From assembly GCF_003367905.1 (NCBI RefSeq), contig NZ_CP029462.1, positions 620,001-684,000 on the forward strand: a stretch of DNA of 64,000 nucleotides, written 5' to 3'. This stretch comes from Megasphaera stantonii (GTDB taxonomy: Bacteria; Bacillota; Negativicutes; Veillonellales; Megasphaeraceae). Positions 3,298 through 23,640 of the stretch are shown here, in pieces. The position numbers were made by a program, and so were the translations under genes. Below the pieces are notes generated by a model. It was not told the DNA's origin and did no database searches. It worked only from the letters and a program-made list of their open reading frames with translations. Positions within the stretch are counted from its first letter, which is position 1; each line of letters starts with the position of its first letter.

Positions 3298-5277
3298 TTA
3301 TTCAAACCAGCGGGACAAATCGAATTCTTCGCCGATCTGTTCCTTGATATATCCCTGCGCTAAATACAAGCCTAATAGCGACAAGGTGGAGATGCGCAGC
3401 ATCGTGCTGTCCCAAATGTCGCCCAAATCGGCCAGTACCGGCGAAATATCTTCCATAATATCCAGGGCTTCTTCGCCGCCGAAGCCGGCAGGCCGTTTTT
3501 TCGCCAGCCGCAGCAGCTGCGACTGCATGGCCCTGTCGGAAATACCGGCCAGGCGGAAGAACCGCGTCGCCATGCTTTCGTCGATCATAGCCAGCTTCAC
3601 CAGGGGCGAATTGAAGGAACGGACGATATATTCCGCCGGCATGGGCGTTCCCTTCAGCACCTTGCGCAGTTCCTCTTCCGTAAAGCCGCGGTAGCGGAAT
3701 AAGAGCGGATACGAATCAGCCAGGATTTCAGCAAAGTGCGTTTCCTTGCCTTCAAAAGCCGTGCAGTGGAGATAATCGAGCTGCTGGTAATAGGGGCGTT
3801 CCGTCGGGAATCCGTCGAGGAAGGGCAGTACGTACTTGTCGATGTACTGGCCGAAGGTTTCGGCGTCGACGTTGTGGGAATTGCGCGAATACAGGAACAG
3901 CAGCAGGACAGACAGTATCTTATAGTGGTTGTCCGACAGATAAGGCATGATTTTCAAGGCGTCGACGGCGACGAGATGGCGCGTCGAAACAGGCGAGCCC
4001 TGCACGATATCGGCAAAGGCCTGCAATGCCATCGCCGCGACGTAATCCTTCGGATGGGCCACGTAGGCCTTTTGCACGTTCTGCAGCGCTTCCTGGGCCA
4101 GCAGCGACGACAGGGCTTTCTTTCGTTCGCCGTCGGATCGGCAGCCGATGCGGCGGAAGGCCGCCGCCGTAATCGAAGCAGCCTGCGCTTTCATATCCTC
4201 GGTCACCATGCCGAATTGACGCAGGAAATGAGCCGTGCATTGGGACATAAAGGGCGAATCGGCTTCGGGAGCCGCTTCCCAAATAGACGGCCGGCCGGCC
4301 ATTGGCGCAGCTTTCGCCGCCGAGCGGGACAGGTCGTTGCCCCAGGGGCTCTTCTGCTGCTTCGTCTCGTTGCCGGCGTCAGTATGCGTATGCTGCCGTA
4401 CCGGCGGCATGACGGCCGTTTCGTCGCTTGCCGGGGCCGCGCCGGTCTGACGCACGGCATCAGACAAGCGGCCTGCGTCGAACATAACTGTTTCGTCTGC
4501 CGCAGCAGCCGTTTCTTCCTGCTTTCTGCGCAGCTCGGCCGGACTGATGACCTGCGTTTCGTCGGAGACGCTTTTGGCGGCAGCCTTGGCCGTTTCAGCC
4601 ATGACTTCCTGCACGATGCGGCGTCCCGGCCGCGCCGCGGCTTCGCCCTGCGATTTCGCCTCTAAATCGGCGGCTACGACGGCGGCCATATCGGCCAAGG
4701 CGGCGCGGGGAGCCTCTTCGTCTTCCCGTTCTCCCTCAGACCGTTCAGCGGCTTTGGCGCTCCGCAATGCTTCAGCCATGTCTTTCTTCTTGGCTTCTTC
4801 TTCCTTCGCCTTGTGAGCCGCAGCTTCTTCTTTATCGATTTTATCCATGGCTTCTAATATTTCTTCGCGCGACAATACCTGTGTCGCGTCGAGATGTTCC
4901 TGCTTCTTAGCCGGACGATGCGGTTCTTCGTATACGATTTTTCCGTCGCGGCGTACGGCTTCTCCCTTCGTCGTCACGAAGGCCGTTTCGTCGGGATTTT
5001 CCTGACGCTCCCGCACGGTTACGTTAGAAATGCGAGGAATGGGCGCCGTATCTTCCCTGACGGGCTGCTGCGGCTGCGCCGAGCGTCTTTTTTCCGCCTC
5101 GTCATACCCGAGGGACGACTTGCCCTGGCCTGGCCGTTCGGACGCGGCGCGGCTGTGGCGGTTCTTTCCTTTTTTCTCTTCCTTCTCCGAGCTGCCGCCG
5201 GAAAATAAAATATAGCATACTACAAAAAAGACAACTGCAATGCCAGCTACAATAGCATATGGTAACAAATTTGCCAT
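3298..5277 (-). CDS. Membrane-anchored protein with long disordered region and repeated D-x-T motifs; function unknown
   Basis: A 659-residue protein; the ATG at 5277 has GAGAGG upstream, so the longer 669-codon reading is rejected. Residues 3-26 are one membrane helix with a short N-terminus, so the rest is probably cytoplasmic. Residues about 27-340 are low-complexity, highly charged and Ala/Glu/Lys-rich, with likely coiled coil at 136-185. This region carries a repeated motif of the form D-[EA]-T-x-[hydrophobic] with Thr at 98, 132, 241, 263 and 287, and a weaker copy at 77 (EDTAPI). Residues about 340-659 are predicted helical and globular, ending LSRWFE. I do not recognise a family. It precedes galU by 12 bases, hinting at an envelope or cell-cycle link, but that is inference. 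Confidence 0.75.
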   Translation of the reverse strand: MANLLPYAIVAGIAVVFFVVCYILFSGGSSEKEEKKGKNRHSRAASERPGQGKSSLGYDEAEKRRSAQPQQPVREDTAPIPRISNVTVRERQENPDETAFVTTKGEAVRRDGKIVYEEPHRPAKKQEHLDATQVLSREEILEAMDKIDKEEAAAHKAKEEEAKKKDMAEALRSAKAAERSEGEREDEEAPRAALADMAAVVAADLEAKSQGEAAARPGRRIVQEVMAETAKAAAKSVSDETQVISPAELRRKQEETAAAADETVMFDAGRLSDAVRQTGAAPASDETAVMPPVRQHTHTDAGNETKQQKSPWGNDLSRSAAKAAPMAGRPSIWEAAPEADSPFMSQCTAHFLRQFGMVTEDMKAQAASITAAAFRRIGCRSDGERKKALSSLLAQEALQNVQKAYVAHPKDYVAAMALQAFADIVQGSPVSTRHLVAVDALKIMPYLSDNHYKILSVLLLFLYSRNSHNVDAETFGQYIDKYVLPFLDGFPTERPYYQQLDYLHCTAFEGKETHFAEILADSYPLLFRYRGFTEEELRKVLKGTPMPAEYIVRSFNSPLVKLAMIDESMATRFFRLAGISDRAMQSQLLRLAKKRPAGFGGEEALDIMEDISPVLADLGDIWDSTMLRISTLSLLGLYLAQGYIKEQIGEEFDLSRWFE

Positions 5278-15849: not shown

Positions 15850-15980
15850 GCGCCGCAGCAGCACCGATTTAAGGGCATGCCATGCCTCCATCGTATTTCT
15901 TGCCATAAAAGGCAAGCATTAGACATGATCGGATTTAAAACCTATAATGTAATTAGTAAGAATACCTTATGTTAAAGGTC

Positions 15981-16011
15981 TTGACTTAAAGCAAACTCCA
16001 TGTGATATGAT
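15981..16011 (+). promoter_or_regulatory. MerR-type 19-base-spacer promoter upstream of the phosphatase gene
   Basis: TTGACT (15981-15986), a 19-base spacer beginning TAAAGCAAACTCCAT, and TATGAT (16006-16011). The over-long spacer is the hallmark of promoters twisted open by MerR-family regulators. The -35 and first spacer bases are nearly identical to the promoter of the AdhR-like gene at 21749: CTTGACTTAnAGnAAACTCC. Control by that regulator is inferred. Confidence 0.7.
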
Positions 16012-16051
16012 AAAGTTCATCTCAGGATATACACCGCAAGGAGGGCTGCAA

Positions 16052-17356
16052 ATGAATAAAAAGAAACTGTTGAAACGAATTGTTCCCGTATTGCTCATCG
16101 CCTGTGCCGCCGCGTACGCCTTCATTCCCGGCGTCAAGACGGCAGCCCAGCAAAGCCTTCGGACAACAAAGTCCCTGGCCGCTCATTACGAACTCACCAG
16201 CAATGTAGACGCCATGAACATCCGTCAGGTCATTACGGAAGACAGCGAGACGTCGCGGACCGTCATGTGGCAGTCGGCAATGGCCGAAGACGACGCTGTC
16301 GTAGAATATCATAAGCAGGGCCAGGACGAGGTCTACGCCGTCGCGGCGACGAGCGAAGCCTTTACGGACGACGGCGTGACGACGTATATCCATAAAGCAA
16401 CGCTGACGGAGCTGTCGCCCGGCACAGCCTACGAATACCGCGTCGGCTACGGCCAAAAGCGAAGTGCCTGGATTCCCCTGCACACGGCAGAAGGAAACGA
16501 ATTTAAAGCCCTGATATTTCCCGACTCACAGTCCAGCGATTACAGCGTATGGGCCGCCACGCTGGACCCGGCCTGGCAGGCTCATTCCGACGTCCAATTC
16601 GTCGTCTCTATGGGCGACCTCGTCGACAACGGCCAGGATCATTACCAGTGGAACGCCTGGTTCGACGCTGCGGAAGATATGATCAGCAAGATCCCCATCG
16701 CGCCGGCGATGGGCAATCACGAAACGTACAACCGCGACTGGAAGATCCGCATGCCCGAAGCCTATCTCCGCCTGTTCGCCCTGCCGGCCAACTCGCCCGA
16801 GCCGTATCGGAACCAGTTTTATTCCTTTGATTACGGCGATGTTCACTTCGTCGTCCTCAACACGCAGATTTCCGAAATGGCCCAGTTCCAGCCCAAGCTG
16901 CTGGAAGATGAAATGGCCTGGTTCCACCAGGACATGGCCCGCACAACAAAAAAATGGAAAGTCGTCGTCATGCACAAGGATGTCCTGCAGTACGGATTCC
17001 AAAACCGCCCGCAGCCCCGCGAAGAAGGCTTTTCCGAAGAAGGCCGCCAGTGGATGCCCCTCTTTGACGAATACGGCGTCGACGTCGTATTATCAGCCCA
17101 TCTCCACAGCTATCGCGACCGCGGCCATATCCGCAACTTCCAGCGCGATGCTTCAGGTCCGCTGTACATCCTGACGGGCGTAGCCGGCAGCGTCCAATAT
17201 CCCGGCTTATGGAAAAACCATTCCCTGGACGAGTACGCAGCGCCTCAGCCGGAAACGGAAAACTACCTGGTCATGGAAGCCTCCGACGATACCCTTACCT
17301 TTACGGGGTACCTGCCTTCCGGAGAGGAACTCCATACCGTCTCTATCAAAAAATAA
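16052..17356 (+). CDS. Secreted purple-acid-phosphatase-like metallophosphoesterase
   Basis: A 434-residue extracytoplasmic phosphoesterase with an N-terminal basic plus hydrophobic segment (MNKKKLLKRIVPVLLIACAAAYAFIP). A fibronectin-III-like PAP N-terminal domain (about 45-145) precedes the catalytic metallophosphatase domain. Metal-ligand motifs are visible: IFPDSQS (the D-x-Q variant of the first motif), SMGDLVDNG, AMGNHET, VVMHKD and SAHLHSYRD. The family hydrolyses phosphate monoesters. AAGGAGGG precedes the ATG at 16052; an upstream in-frame ATG lacks a site. It stands alone and ends in a terminator. Its promoter resembles that of a MerR regulator 5.7 kb away. Confidence 0.87.
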   Translation: MNKKKLLKRIVPVLLIACAAAYAFIPGVKTAAQQSLRTTKSLAAHYELTSNVDAMNIRQVITEDSETSRTVMWQSAMAEDDAVVEYHKQGQDEVYAVAATSEAFTDDGVTTYIHKATLTELSPGTAYEYRVGYGQKRSAWIPLHTAEGNEFKALIFPDSQSSDYSVWAATLDPAWQAHSDVQFVVSMGDLVDNGQDHYQWNAWFDAAEDMISKIPIAPAMGNHETYNRDWKIRMPEAYLRLFALPANSPEPYRNQFYSFDYGDVHFVVLNTQISEMAQFQPKLLEDEMAWFHQDMARTTKKWKVVVMHKDVLQYGFQNRPQPREEGFSEEGRQWMPLFDEYGVDVVLSAHLHSYRDRGHIRNFQRDASGPLYILTGVAGSVQYPGLWKNHSLDEYAAPQPETENYLVMEASDDTLTFTGYLPSGEELHTVSIKK

Positions 17357-17373
17357 TCGTATCAGCCTGCACG

Positions 17374-17414
17374 GCCCTTCCCCAACAGTACGCCCGGGGG
17401 AGGGCTTTTTTGCG
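17374..17414 (+). terminator. Terminator of the phosphatase gene
   Basis: GCCCTTCCCC pairs with GGGGGAGGGC and is followed by six T on the plus strand, just after the stop at 17356. Confidence 0.85.
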
Positions 17415-17467
17415 GTACATCGCAGCATACTCGCAACGCCGATAGCCTGCAGCCTTCCCTTCAATAA

Positions 17468-17508
17468 CAAAAAACATCCCGCCTGACGAAAGAGCAGACG
17501 GGATGCAT
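17468..17508 (-). terminator. Terminator of ileS
   Basis: On the minus strand CATCCCGTCTGC pairs with the CAGGCGGGATG arm and continues into six T. Confidence 0.85.
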
Positions 17509-17526
17509 ACGAATAGAATATGTTAC

Positions 17527-20322
17527 TTATTTCAAGACGGAAACGCAGCGTGCGCACAGCGTCGGATGTTCGGCATCAGCGCCGACGGTTTCACTGTGAA
17601 TCCAGCAGCGTTCGCATTTTTCATGAGTCGACGGAGCGACGACGACCTTCATATCGCCATGGTCTTCGCCGGAAACGGCTTCAGCCGGGGCCGCTTCGTT
17701 CAGCAAGGAAACTTCGCTGACGATGAGCAGCGTCGCCAGCTGGTCTTTCCACTGGCTGAGGAAGTCGTAGTCTTCGCCGGAAGCGTAAATCGCAACGGCA
17801 GCGTCCAGGGCATGGCCGATCTTCTTATCCTGACGAGCGCCTTCAAGGATACGCGTCAAATCGCGGCGGTACGACAGTAGCGTATTCCAGCGAGCTTCCA
17901 AATCGGCGTTCAAATATTCCGGATGAGCTTTCGGCCAATCCGTCAGAAGAACGCTTTCTTCCTTGCCGGGAATCTGCGGCATGTTCTGCCAAACTTCTTC
18001 TGCCGTGAAGGACAATACGGGCGAAATGATCTTGACCAGCGTATCGAGAATCTGGTACATTGCCGTCTGGGCGCTGCGGCGGACCTGCGAGTCGGCCTTT
18101 TCCGTGTACAGGCGATCTTTGATGACGTCGAGGTACATAGCGCTCAAGTCGACGGTGCAGAAGTTGTGAATCGCATGGTACATGACGTGGAACTGGTAGT
18201 TTTCATAGGCTTCCGTAACCGTTTCATATACTTGTTCCAGACGCATAAGAGCCCATTTATCGAGTTCGGTCATATCGGCATAAGCGACGGCGTCCGTTTC
18301 CGGATTGAAGTCGCTGAGGTTGCCCAAAAGATAGCGGAAGGTGTTGCGGATCTTGCGGTATACGTCAGACAGCTGCTTCAAAATCTTCGGGGACAGGCGG
18401 ATATCGCCCTGGTAGTCGGCCGAGGATACCCACAGGCGCATGACGTCGGCGCCGTACTGTTCGATGACTTCCTGCGGAGCTACCGTATTGCCGACGGATT
18501 TACTCATCTTGCGGCCTTCGCCGTCGACGGTAAAGCCGTGAGTCAGTACGGATTTATACGGAGCGCAGCCGTTGACGGCTACAGACGTCAGCAGGGACGA
18601 GTTAAACCAGCCGCGATGCTGGTCCGAGCCTTCCAGGTACATTTCGCAGGGATAATCCAATTCCGGATCGTTGCAGAGAACGCCCTGATGGGTGCAGCCG
18701 CTGTCGAACCATACGTCCATGATGTCGCTTTCCTTCTGGAAATGGGTGCCGCCGCAGTGGGGGCACGTAAAGCCTTCGGGCAGCAGTTCCTTTTCATCGT
18801 GCATCCACCACGTATCGGAGCCTTCTTCGGCAAACATCGTCTGCAAATGAGCGATCGTTTCGTCGTTGATGATGTGTTCGCCGCAGTCCTTGCAGTAGAA
18901 AATAGGAATCGGAACGCCCCATACGCGCTGACGGGAAATACACCAGTCGCCGCGGTCGTGAATCATGTTGTAAATGCGGTCGTGGCCCCAGCCGGGAATC
19001 CACTGTACCTGGTCAATCGCTTCCAGCGCTTTCTGACGATAGCCGTCAACCGAGGAGAACCACTGTTCCGTCGCGCGGTAGATAATCGGGTTCTTGCAGC
19101 GCCAGCAATGAGGATACTGATGGCGGAAGGTGCTCTTGGCGAAGAGCGCGCCCATTTCAGCCAACCGTTTGATGATAGGAACGTTCATATCGAAGACGAA
19201 CTTGCCTTCGTAATCGGGAACCTTGTCGGTATAGCAGCCGTTGGATCCGACAGTGCCGATCGGCTTGACGCCCCACGACGCGTATTTCATGCAGACATCG
19301 AAGTCGTCCTGGCCGTGGTCCGGAGCCGTATGAACGAGGCCTGTGCCGGCGTCGAGCGTAACGTGATCGCCGAGAAGGACGGGAACCTTGCGGTCTGCGT
19401 AGAAGGGATGCTGGAAGACGAGGCCTTCGATCTGCTTGCCCGTCATGACCTCAGGCAATACTTCGTAGTCTTCTGCCTTGCCGGCCTTCATCGTCGCTTC
19501 GACGAGTTCCTTAGCCATGAGCAGGTATTCTTCGCCGATTTTGACCCATACGTATTCAAAGTTTTCATTGGCGCAAATGGCCATGTTGGCCGGAATCGTC
19601 CAAGGTGTCGTCGTCCAAATCAAGGCGAATACCTTATCCGGATCGGCACCCTTCGGCATGTGGCAATTCAAGTCAACAGCCTGGAATTTTACATAGATGG
19701 AGAAGGATTTGTCGTCCTTGTATTCGATTTCAGCTTCAGCCAGGGCCGTTTCGCAGTGCGGGCACCAGTAAACGGTTTTGAGGCCTTTGTAAATATAGCC
19801 CTTCTTGGCCATTTTGCCGAATACGCCGATCTGAGCCACTTCGACCTGCTTATGAAGCGTCAGGTAGGGATGATCCCAATCGCCGAGAACGCCGAAGCGG
19901 ATGAAGTCCTGCTTCTGTTCTTCTACGCGTTCCAAGGCATAATCGCGGCATTTCGCCCGCAAATCGAGGGCAGACATTTCATGGCGGTTCAGGCCCGTAT
20001 CCTTAATGACGGCGTGTTCAATCGGCAGGCCGTGCGTATCCCAGCCGGGAATATACTTCGTATAATAGCCCTGCTGCGTCTTATATTTTAAAATAATATC
20101 CTTTAATACTTTATTTAAAGCATGGCCGATATGGAGCTTGCCGTTTGCATACGGAGGGCCGTCGTGCAGAATAAATTTCGGCGCGCCGTCGCGCTTCTGC
20201 AGCCGTTTTTCATAAATCTTGTGTTCTTGCCAGAATTTTAAAAAGTCCGGTTCCCGTTTCGGCAGATTGCCGCGCATGGGGAAATCCGTTTTTGGCAGAT
20301 GTAAGGTCTTGCCGTAGTCCAT
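17527..20322 (-). CDS. ileS: Isoleucyl-tRNA synthetase
   Basis: Charges tRNA-Ile. The 931-residue bacterial enzyme has the class I motif HIGH at residues 64-67 (GKLHIGHALNKV), an editing domain with WTTTPWTIPANMA, KMSKS in DGEGRKMSKSVGNTV, and a C-terminal zinc finger with two Cys pairs (KCERCW and CARC). Length and zinc finger fit the type found in most bacteria. GAGGAAACACA precedes the ATG. The upstream T-box with specifier AUC controls it, and a terminator follows. It is transcribed alone. Confidence 0.98.
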   Translation of the reverse strand: MDYGKTLHLPKTDFPMRGNLPKREPDFLKFWQEHKIYEKRLQKRDGAPKFILHDGPPYANGKLHIGHALNKVLKDIILKYKTQQGYYTKYIPGWDTHGLPIEHAVIKDTGLNRHEMSALDLRAKCRDYALERVEEQKQDFIRFGVLGDWDHPYLTLHKQVEVAQIGVFGKMAKKGYIYKGLKTVYWCPHCETALAEAEIEYKDDKSFSIYVKFQAVDLNCHMPKGADPDKVFALIWTTTPWTIPANMAICANENFEYVWVKIGEEYLLMAKELVEATMKAGKAEDYEVLPEVMTGKQIEGLVFQHPFYADRKVPVLLGDHVTLDAGTGLVHTAPDHGQDDFDVCMKYASWGVKPIGTVGSNGCYTDKVPDYEGKFVFDMNVPIIKRLAEMGALFAKSTFRHQYPHCWRCKNPIIYRATEQWFSSVDGYRQKALEAIDQVQWIPGWGHDRIYNMIHDRGDWCISRQRVWGVPIPIFYCKDCGEHIINDETIAHLQTMFAEEGSDTWWMHDEKELLPEGFTCPHCGGTHFQKESDIMDVWFDSGCTHQGVLCNDPELDYPCEMYLEGSDQHRGWFNSSLLTSVAVNGCAPYKSVLTHGFTVDGEGRKMSKSVGNTVAPQEVIEQYGADVMRLWVSSADYQGDIRLSPKILKQLSDVYRKIRNTFRYLLGNLSDFNPETDAVAYADMTELDKWALMRLEQVYETVTEAYENYQFHVMYHAIHNFCTVDLSAMYLDVIKDRLYTEKADSQVRRSAQTAMYQILDTLVKIISPVLSFTAEEVWQNMPQIPGKEESVLLTDWPKAHPEYLNADLEARWNTLLSYRRDLTRILEGARQDKKIGHALDAAVAIYASGEDYDFLSQWKDQLATLLIVSEVSLLNEAAPAEAVSGEDHGDMKVVVAPSTHEKCERCWIHSETVGADAEHPTLCARCVSVLK

Positions 20323-20344
20323 TGTGTTTCCTCCTCATTCAGTA

Positions 20345-20589
20345 AAAAAAATAACGCCTCCATCCCTAAGGGACGAAGACGTAATCACCGTGGTACCACC
20401 CTATTGACTGCAGTGCAGCCACTCTATGCCCGTAACGGAGCTACCCGTCGGCTGGTTCACAGCCGAAGCTTCCAAGTGATCCGCCTGCATACCGTCTTTC
20501 CCGGGCTCACACTCTTCCCGGTTCGCTGTAAAGACCTCCGACGCAGGCCGTCTTGTTCATCGCATTTTAATATACATAAACTTGTATAT
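20345..20589 (-). promoter_or_regulatory. T-box leader (Ile specifier) upstream of ileS
   Basis: On the minus strand the T-box AGGGTGGTACCACGG lies at 20388-20402, followed by a terminator (CGTCTTCGTCCC...GGGATGGAGGCG then eight T). The stem I landmarks AGCGAACCGGGA and GAGTGTGAGCCCGG are present. The specifier position before ACTTGGAAGC reads AUC (Ile) at 20478-20480, matching ileS. Confidence 0.92.
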
Positions 20590-20595
20590 AGCCGT

Positions 20596-20624
20596 ATTTT
20601 AATAGTTTATATGATATTTGTCAA
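20596..20624 (-). promoter_or_regulatory. Sigma-A promoter of the ileS T-box transcript
   Basis: TTGACA (20619-20624), a 17-base spacer and TAAAAT (20596-20601) on the minus strand. Confidence 0.85.
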
Positions 20625-20689
20625 GACGTTTCAAAGATGAACCCGAAACGAAGGGCTCCTACATGCGCATCCCGGCCGCTGTGCGGCAA

Positions 20690-20726
20690 AAAAAATAAAC
20701 CTTACTATGAACTAGTAAGGTTTACG
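20690..20726 (-). terminator. Terminator of tRNA-Val(GAC)
   Basis: On the minus strand TAAACCTTACTAG pairs with AGTAAGGTTTA, followed by a run of eight T. Confidence 0.8.
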
Positions 20727-20730
20727 TGTG

Positions 20731-20807
20731 TGGTGGGCGGTAATGGATTCGAACCATCGACCCCCTCGATGTCAACGAGATACTCTAACCAACTGAGCTA
20801 ACCGCCC
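20731..20807 (-). tRNA. tRNA-Val (anticodon GAC), CCA encoded
   Basis: A 77-base cloverleaf: acceptor GGGCGGT/ACCGCCC with an encoded CCA, D-arm GCTCAGTTGGTTAGAGT, anticodon loop TTGACAT read as GAC, T-arm TGGTTCGAATCCA. It has its own promoter (20837-20866) and terminator, so it is a single-gene unit. Confidence 0.95.
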
Positions 20808-20836
20808 TCAACAGTGCCGCTCCATGCGACTTGTTT

Positions 20837-20866
20837 ATTATACGGCAAAATCAGCGAATTTGTCAA
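20837..20866 (-). promoter_or_regulatory. Sigma-A promoter of tRNA-Val(GAC)
   Basis: TTGACA (20861-20866), an 18-base spacer and TATAAT (20837-20842) on the minus strand. The stretch from here to 21057 has no gene I can support. A 72-codon frame runs through it (20886-21104) out of phase with the end of the TlpA-like gene, but its composition and position give no support. Confidence 0.85.
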
Positions 20867-21057
20867 TAGTAATTTTATAACTTTTTCACGCTGCCATCAA
20901 CTTTTTTCCCTTCCTACCATCGATGCAGGAACCATGGTGAATAGGCACCAAAAAGGAATTTCCATCGAGGCCTATTCTGCCAATCCAAACGGGAATATCA
21001 ATACGGACCAGCCTTCTGAGCGCAGCAACTCGCAACCCAAGGCTTTCGCCCAATACG

Positions 21058-21624
21058 TCACGGTTCCATCCCTCTTTCCACCATATAAGCCAACGATCTT
21101 TCATCGGGCAGCCCTGCGACTCTGTCGGAAATGGCTCCGCCTTTGCGGATCATGACGCACTGCGGGACTTCATATACGTTATAGTCGTCGGCGACAGACA
21201 AGGCGCCCGTATAAAAGGGCATGGCATAGGCATGCTGCAAATAAAAGGAGCGGGCTTCTTCTGCCGTGCTGCCGAAAGAAAGGGCGACGACATGGATATC
21301 ATCGCCGTACCTTCGGTATATATTTTCCAGCACAGGCATTCCCTCTTTGCTGTCGTCGCTCCAGGGCATCCAGAAATAGATGAGCACGGGCTTGTCGTTA
21401 TATAAATCTCGTATTTCTGTATCTTGCCCGTCCATGGCGCGGATATGGCCGTTATGAGCCAAGATTTCCGTATCGGCTATCATGGCTTCTTCCGCTGCTT
21501 TTTCATAGGCCTCCAGCGTCGCCTCTTTCTCCGTCCCCATCCAGAAAGCGACAAAATACGCCGCACAAGCGACGGCGAGGGCCGCGATGATTTTATTTTT
21601 TATACCGGCACGTGTTTTATTCAT
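21058..21624 (-). CDS. TlpA/thioredoxin-fold membrane-anchored protein lacking the CxxC motif
   Basis: A 188-residue protein with an N-terminal membrane anchor (about 11-28). From about 50 on it has a TlpA/AhpC-TSA-like thioredoxin fold: DKPVLIYFWMPWSDDSKEGMPVLENIYRRY, VVALSFG, then a cis-Pro-type loop VPQCVMIRKGG. In redox-active relatives the FW is followed by Cys-x-x-Cys; here it is FWMPWSDD, so both catalytic cysteines are missing. Cys20 lies in the membrane segment and Cys156 beside the cis-proline. It is therefore probably not a thiol-disulfide oxidoreductase; a binding or assembly role is possible. It diverges from the merR gene with 124 bases between them. Confidence 0.75.
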   Translation of the reverse strand: MNKTRAGIKNKIIAALAVACAAYFVAFWMGTEKEATLEAYEKAAEEAMIADTEILAHNGHIRAMDGQDTEIRDLYNDKPVLIYFWMPWSDDSKEGMPVLENIYRRYGDDIHVVALSFGSTAEEARSFYLQHAYAMPFYTGALSVADDYNVYEVPQCVMIRKGGAISDRVAGLPDERSLAYMVERGMEP

Positions 21625-21693
21625 GGCATCACCTTATCGTATTTTTTTCAGTATATCATACCCCGTCAAGGACAGCGAATTTCCATCCGTCTC

Positions 21694-21724
21694 TTGACTT
21701 ATAGTAAACTCCATACTGTATAGT
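21694..21724 (+). promoter_or_regulatory. MerR-type 19-base-spacer promoter and operator of the AdhR-like gene
   Basis: TTGACT (21694-21699), a 19-base spacer and TATAGT (21719-21724). The core CTTGACTTATAGTAAACTCC resembles the ACT/AGT-repeat operators of the AdhR/NmlR branch of the MerR family. It sits in the divergent gap between the TlpA-like gene and the regulator, so autoregulation is likely. Confidence 0.75.
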
Positions 21725-21748
21725 AAGGGTACTAGGAGGGAATCTATC

Positions 21749-22105
21749 ATGAAAATCAAAGAAGTAAGCGAGCAATACGACATTACGCCGGACACGCTGC
21801 GGTATTACGAACGCATCGGCCTGATCCGCAACGTCCCGCGCGATAAAAACGGCATCCGCAATTATTCAGAGGAAAACTGCAATACCATCGCCTTTATTAA
21901 ATGCATGCGTTCGGGCAACGTATCCATCGAAGGCCTGACGGAGTACATCGAGCTGTACAACCAGGGCAGCCGCGAGACCTATGAGGCGAGAAAGGCCATC
22001 CTCGTCCGCGAACGGGACCGTCTCAAAGAGCGGATGAGCGCCATGCAGGAAGCCTTGGCGTATTTAAATCGAAAAATAGCGACGTACGACCGCTGGAGCA
22101 AGTGA
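21749..22105 (+). CDS. MerR-family transcriptional regulator, AdhR/NmlR-like
   Basis: A 118-residue regulator. The winged-helix DNA-binding domain is at 1-70 with KIKEVSEQYDITPDTLRYYERIGLI, the standard MerR recognition region, followed by a long dimerisation helix (75-112). Cys52 (IAFIKCMRS) sits where AdhR of B. subtilis has its aldehyde-sensing cysteine; Cys44 is also present. There is no metal-binding loop at the C-terminus, so metals are an unlikely signal. TAGGAGGG precedes the ATG. The gene has a 19-base-spacer promoter and probably activates itself and the phosphatase gene at 16052. A terminator shared with rpsI follows. Confidence 0.88.
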   Translation: MKIKEVSEQYDITPDTLRYYERIGLIRNVPRDKNGIRNYSEENCNTIAFIKCMRSGNVSIEGLTEYIELYNQGSRETYEARKAILVRERDRLKERMSAMQEALAYLNRKIATYDRWSK

Positions 22106-22140
22106 CAAACTCCAGAACCGACGGAGCAGGTGCTTTTTAC

Positions 22141-22182
22141 AAAAAAAATGGCGTACACCTCATGGGTTACGCCATTTTTGAT
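22141..22182. terminator. Bidirectional terminator between merR and rpsI
   Basis: AAAATGGCGTA and TACGCCATTTTT form a strong stem with A and T tracts on both sides, serving both converging genes. Confidence 0.85.
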
Positions 22183-23361: not shown

Positions 23362-23640
23362 CAACAATTTGATAGTATTGCAATGAAGAGAAGAGTACAT
23401 GAAAAAGAACGGCACAGAGAGTTCCCGCTGTGGTGAAAGGGAATCCGGGGCGTTTCATGGAAGATGGACTCCGAGCAGGTTAGTCGAATCATTAGACTGC
23501 CCGGGCGCACCCGTTACAGTGCTATGGTATTCAGGGCTTCGGCCTGCGTACCTGAAGAGGCCGGGCCTGCGAAGGTCCGGTGAAATTGGGTGGTATCACG
23601 GTGCTTCCGTCCCTTTGGGGACGGGAGCTTTTTTTATTGC
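23362..23640 (+). promoter_or_regulatory. T-box leader (Met specifier) upstream of metY-metA
   Basis: The T-box GGGTGGTATCACGG is at 23588-23601, followed by a terminator CCGTCCC/GGGACGG plus seven T (about 23602-23636). Stem I landmarks are AGAGAG (AG bulge) and GTGGTGAAA (distal loop). The specifier site in GAAGATGGACTCCGAGC reads AUG at 23464-23466, so the leader should sense uncharged tRNA-Met. Methionine-limited cells would then express both genes. Confidence 0.9.

Follow-up and report, generated by a model that had tools for sequence, protein, structure and literature searches.

A predicted MerR-type regulon in Megasphaera stantonii and its relatives, with an NmlR/AdhR-like regulator and a purple-acid-phosphatase-like protein

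In the excerpts of the literature used here, MerR-family promoters carry a dyad between -35 and -10 elements that are 19 bp apart (PMC9909328), and the dyad centre of CueR and CadR sites is 7 bp from the -35 element (PMC5045206). In similar excerpts, the conserved cysteine of the short regulators NmlR and AdhR is Cys54 and Cys52, respectively (PMC4776306), and AdhR has a single cysteine (PMC3499171). We compared these systems with a locus of Megasphaera stantonii in which a metallophosphatase gene and a merR gene have closely similar promoters. The locus lies in a stretch of 64,000 nucleotides, referred to below as the window, and has the following features.

15920-15948, + strand: possible second, ordinary phosphatase promoter, TAGACA-N17-TATAAT, sigma-70-like, by consensus match only
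15981-16011, + strand: MerR-type promoter of the phosphatase gene, with TTGACT at 15981-15986, a 19-bp spacer at 15987-16005 and TATGAT at 16006-16011
16052-17356, + strand: metallophosphatase, 434 aa, membrane-anchored or secreted, purple-acid-phosphatase-like (PF16656 and PF00149)
21058-21624, - strand: TlpA/ResA-like thioredoxin-fold protein without a CxxC motif, divergent neighbour of merR
21694-21724, + strand: MerR-type promoter of merR, with TTGACT at 21694-21699, a 19-bp spacer at 21700-21718 and TATAGT at 21719-21724
21749-22105, + strand: NmlR/AdhR-like MerR regulator, 118 aa, with Cys44 and Cys52 (profile matches and alignments)

The initial annotation of this DNA had proposed that both promoters combine TTGACT, a spacer of exactly 19 bases and a good -10 element, and that they share a sequence. 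The coordinates above confirm the first point. As to the second, CTTGACTTANAGNAAACTCC was present exactly at 15980-15999 and 21693-21712, and at no other site in the window with up to three mismatches. The mean number of matches expected by chance in the window was 0.03 (100 shuffles), and two matches occurred in none of the shuffles. A genome-wide search, which had been proposed as a check, was done with TTGACTTANAGNAAACTCC at up to three mismatches in the complete 2.65-Mb genome; it gave two exact sites, with the nearest others, six in number, at three mismatches (eight in all), and the reversed control pattern gave one match. The phosphatase and merR sites, in genes 5.7 kb apart, were each other's sole matches in the genome at up to two mismatches. 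A plasmid search with 15900-22150 as the query gave no match.

Most of the dyad in the phosphatase promoter falls inside the 19-bp spacer. The best-fitting dyad has its centre 13 bp into the element, which is 7 bp past the -35. We assessed spacing with an anchor that was blind to the -10, leaving out the four phosphatase genes of the genus that have no element. The best -10 was at 19 bp in 19 of 22 element-bearing promoters, within the 19-20 bp used as the NmlR/AdhR criterion; there was a tie in one promoter, and 24 bp was best in two, the phosphatase promoters of genus g2. The spacer and the dyad, together with the conservation described below, support the earlier assignment of both promoters to the MerR type. 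Spacers of 17 bases had been reported for other promoters of the window; this held for the best sites of trpS and ileS, and at rplM a 17-bp site only tied with a 20-bp site. There is a T-box leader at 23374-23617 (+ strand) in the window, and the leader regions of trpS and ileS had no Rfam match at the gathering score. The TAGACA-N17-TATAAT site, about 30 bp before the phosphatase element, beats the element by one match when both are compared to the plain consensus, and this candidate promoter could allow expression of the phosphatase independently of MerR.

The regulator is a short protein with a MerR N-terminal DNA-binding domain (PF13411, 60.3 bits) and no effector domain. The best NCBIfam model was NmlR (NF041849), with a score of 129.8 bits. 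Because this is under the curated cut-off of 175, we call the protein NmlR-like and not NmlR; the best model and Cys52 nevertheless agree with its earlier description as AdhR-like. Cys44 and Cys52 were invariant in the 12 aligned members, and both were present in all 15 merR genes of the sample of regulator-bearing genomes described below. Among the MerR sequences from the order and from Phascolarctobacterium, Cys44 was limited to the 13 that scored at least 149 bits. Cys52 aligns with a cysteine of 5e01, H. influenzae HI_0186, which we take to be NmlR; 3gp4 does not have that cysteine. The TlpA/ResA-like gene adjoins merR divergently in the genomes G000 and G011 and convergently in G006 (21058-21624 of the window; L122, 3089-3664; L118, 2612-3157), and the CxxC motif is absent in all three. 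Control of the divergent gene in the window by the regulator was considered, and no good promoter was seen on its strand.

Using one promoter pattern, we found six sites in the genome that contains the window, and none with the reversed control; a looser pattern found seven. The six sites precede the phosphatase gene, merR, a DUF362-ferredoxin gene, a gene for a Tat-exported DUF362 protein, which lies upstream of cupin and flavodoxin genes, a gene for a Tat-exported metallo-beta-lactamase (MBL)-fold protein, and a second, broken copy of this last gene. The broken copy (L109, G000:C1:2487000-2492500) has its own element and is split by transposase genes. Homologues of all five intact element-bearing genes occur in a single 12-kb stretch of another genome, G103, with six elements. 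This stretch encodes the MBL protein (50.5% identity to that of the window's genome), the phosphatase (56%), an FMN reductase, two flavodoxins (flavodoxin identity 40%), MerR (53%), the DUF362-ferredoxin protein and a second DUF362 protein (79% and 75%), and a cupin (60%). Within the genus, the element was found at the DUF362-ferredoxin gene in G000, G001, G003, G006, G009, G011, G012 and G013; in G001, G006, G009, G012 and G013 this gene was identified chiefly from its first codons. Aldo/keto reductase genes share the promoter in G007. A region of the window's genome (L111, G000:C1:432000-444500) contains flavodoxin, cupin, aldo/keto-reductase-like and further MerR genes, and one element at up to five mismatches. 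The regulon had been described as a split one of two genes. The six promoter sites, and the clustering in G103 of homologues of the five intact genes, do not uphold that description: judged from sequence, the predicted regulon is not of two genes and includes at least five kinds of gene.

In the model that we propose, the regulator encoded at 21749 would bind dyads of the type CTTAGAGT-NN-ACTCYAAG within promoters that have a 19-bp spacer, and the bound dimer would keep the promoter off. Once an electrophile, for example an aldehyde, had modified Cys52, the regulator would twist the DNA and bring the -35 and -10 elements into alignment. This would turn on merR itself, the phosphatase gene and at least three further units, namely the DUF362-ferredoxin gene, the Tat-exported DUF362 gene with cupin and flavodoxin, and the gene for the Tat-exported MBL-fold protein. 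The phosphatase would be one output among several genes of the regulon. We have high confidence in a multi-gene regulon of the 21749 regulator that includes the phosphatase.

An aldehyde or thiol signal is plausible. The alignment of Cys52 with the cysteine of HI_0186 and the redox-type genes at the shared promoter (DUF362, flavodoxin, cupin, and the aldo/keto reductases of G007) argue for such a signal, and against a circuit that is real and responds to something else, such as a metal, a phosphorylated metabolite or the phosphate supply. We still regard one of these other signals as quite possible, given the score below the NmlR cut-off, the two invariant cysteines versus one in AdhR (excerpt of PMC3499171), and a phosphatase that would be odd within an aldehyde regulon. 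In addition, reading the genes at the six genome sites by eye revealed neither estD nor a thiol-dependent alcohol/formaldehyde dehydrogenase gene such as adhC, the target expected of NmlR/AdhR regulators.

The phosphatase itself has the N-terminal domain of purple acid phosphatases, a metallophosphoesterase domain and the corresponding fold. An N-terminal helix is seen in its structure model (pLDDT 89.5, pTM 0.87), for which the 23 best Foldseek matches in the PDB were plant purple acid phosphatases (sweet potato, kidney bean, lupin and wheat), with TM-scores over the query of 0.69-0.74. Asp158, Asp189, Asn222, His308, His350 and His352, which we take to be the expected metal ligands, were invariant in 24 sequences. 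Purple acid phosphatases owe their colour to a tyrosine metal ligand. The position of this iron-binding tyrosine presumably corresponds to Asp192 (placed by motif spacing, without superposition), which was invariant in 24 of 24 aligned relatives, and by this criterion the protein differs from the purple enzymes.

We examined conservation in a genus sample of 15 genomes, in which the named relatives are chiefly Megasphaera, plus Colibacter and Anaeroglobus. Eight of the genomes have a merR orthologue (63-72% identity, leaving aside the window's own), and 14 have the phosphatase. The element was upstream of merR in all eight genomes with that gene, and upstream of the phosphatase gene in 10 of 14, comprising eight of eight with merR and two of six without it. 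The four phosphatase genes without the element are in G002, G004, G005 and G014, all of which have no merR orthologue. We shuffled the 22 upstream regions (200 bp each) to give 4400 sequences, of which none matched at up to 4 mismatches of 23 and six matched at up to 6. The distance between the two genes is about 5.6-5.7 kb in G000 and G006, but in G001 they are far apart; the shared promoter is therefore independent of their linkage. Absence of the element before orthologous phosphatase genes had been named in the initial annotation as an outcome that would count against regulation of the phosphatase by this protein. The presence of the element at 10 of the 14, and in all eight genomes with the regulator, instead supports that proposal, and it is very likely from this comparison that the regulator at 21749 controls the phosphatase.

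Two genomes, G003 and G008, have retained the element at the phosphatase gene and have no merR orthologue. The phosphatase of G003 (L125, G003:C38) matches in two pieces in different frames, and that at G014:C57 in three pieces; either decay or assembly error may explain these fragments. G008 has a merR-type promoter and a ribosome-binding-like site (L128, approximately 3330-3520) with no merR gene after them, next to a gene for a 1052-aa protein resembling the gene that flanks merR in G007.

The pairing of promoters was also found beyond the genus. Among the named phosphatase loci (58, of which 46 were examined and 12 left out, some also included in other counts), 18 of 46, counted without regard to the presence of the regulator, had the element at up to six mismatches, in Megasphaera-type, Veillonella, Phascolarctobacterium and Acidaminococcaceae records. 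It was absent from 28, including Acidaminococcus, Selenomonas and Mitsuokella; M. micronuciformis, Colibacter, Anaeroglobus, one Veillonella and P. faecium loci also had none. At the level of the order, outside the genus, the element was present at 9 of 18 phosphatase genes, and order-level MerR genes had it in 9 of 17 cases. In Phascolarctobacterium, the element is followed by the phosphatase gene, then by a short reading frame and merR, and in all six genomes of this genus (g18) merR follows the phosphatase gene at a distance of about 150 bp, by match coordinates. In six genomes of genus g76 the two genes are adjacent and each has its own element; in G123 they are unlinked, again with an element at both. 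The two genes are neighbours or share an operon in two other families. We also examined 33 phosphatase regions (34 genes) from genomes that all have a regulator match, a sample that is biased because many regions were picked for apparent closeness of the genes. The element (up to five mismatches) was present at 22 of these 34 phosphatase genes and absent at 12, counted per gene and with second phosphatase copies outside the count; 12 of 15 merR genes had it, and one of the three misses lies behind the phosphatase gene in an operon. G035 has a degenerate element at its phosphatase gene and gave no MerR_1 match in a search that was positive in 12 of 14 control genomes. The cases of G003, G008 and G035, the phosphatase genes that have no element, the divergent dyad type at the G011 phosphatase gene and the second candidate promoter in the window count against control by the regulator. 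The recurrence of the promoter pairing in distant relatives nevertheless makes it very probable that the phosphatase is part of a larger, regulated circuit of the stress type.

Similar sites are used by other MerR proteins. In a survey of 380 genomes of the class (regulator at E ≤1e-25, scoring up to 12 candidates in each genome, counted by eye), at least one element was found in 154 of 158 genomes with the regulator versus 67 of 222 others, with four matches overall for the reversed control; these counts are not independent, because the genomes are related.

Control of a true MerR-type phosphatase promoter by a paralogous MerR protein, and not by the 21749 protein, is unlikely. The genome does encode more MerR proteins, and by eye two of their genes seem to be preceded by opposite-strand promoters of the MerR type. 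Two genomes of family f2 have a more distant MerR gene that is divergent from the phosphatase gene or its operon, with an element of the AAAG..CTTT type between them. The dyad at the G011 phosphatase gene is also of this type, and the merR promoter of G011 is unlike it; because of this site and the different MerR in the two f2 genomes, the controlling MerR may be exchangeable. The mutual and exclusive match of the phosphatase and merR promoters at up to two mismatches speaks against a paralogue, as does the same kind of merR next to the phosphatase gene in f5 and f24 genomes. It is very improbable that the likeness arose by chance, or by common origin without common regulation, despite there being just two near-identical sites in the genome, both of them good sigma-70 promoters, since the conservation in other families, the 19-bp spacer, the dyad and the gene linkage all oppose it. 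Chance likeness was rejected on the rarity of the element in the shuffles and the genome search, and on its absence at up to four mismatches from the 4400 upstream shuffles. A mere resemblance between strong promoters was rejected on the spacer, the dyad and the linkage.

Control by the 21749 regulator remains our preferred reading. More tentatively, such NmlR-like regulators with two cysteines may govern an old carbonyl/redox stress regulon across anaerobic Negativicutes, with an extracytoplasmic enzyme resembling purple acid phosphatases in its core. If so, electrophile stress would involve the cleavage of a phosphorylated compound outside the cytoplasm, a step so far unrecognised. The analysis predicts a regulon in a class of anaerobes, together with its operator, its regulator and its target genes, and it gives a membrane-anchored phosphatase and the DUF362 proteins of unknown function a testable physiological setting. 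In a limited literature search, we met no such regulon for these anaerobes among the papers listed. The search found nothing joining NmlR with a metallophosphatase, Megasphaera with a MerR-phosphatase regulon, DUF362 with MerR, flavodoxin and cupin, or purple acid phosphatase with the MerR family and aldehyde.

Compared with known systems, the predicted circuit is closest to NmlR (Haemophilus/Neisseria) and AdhR (YraB, Bacillus subtilis), which are likewise short MerR proteins without an added sensor domain, with a cysteine at the position aligned with HI_0186 and redox-type target genes. It differs from them in the sub-cut-off NmlR score of its regulator, in the two invariant cysteines, and in its sites, which precede phosphatase, DUF362 and MBL-fold genes. 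The promoters resemble those of the DNA-distortion activators MerR, CueR and BmrR in the 19-bp spacer with a dyad between the -35 and -10, and the sites of CueR and CadR in the dyad centre 7 bp from the -35; here, in contrast to MerR, CueR and BmrR, the half-site (by eye) and the target genes are others, and activation is a prediction. The phosphatase shares both Pfam domain types and the fold with the plant purple acid phosphatases, but is only 15-18% identical to them and has Asp192 presumably in place of their iron-binding tyrosine.
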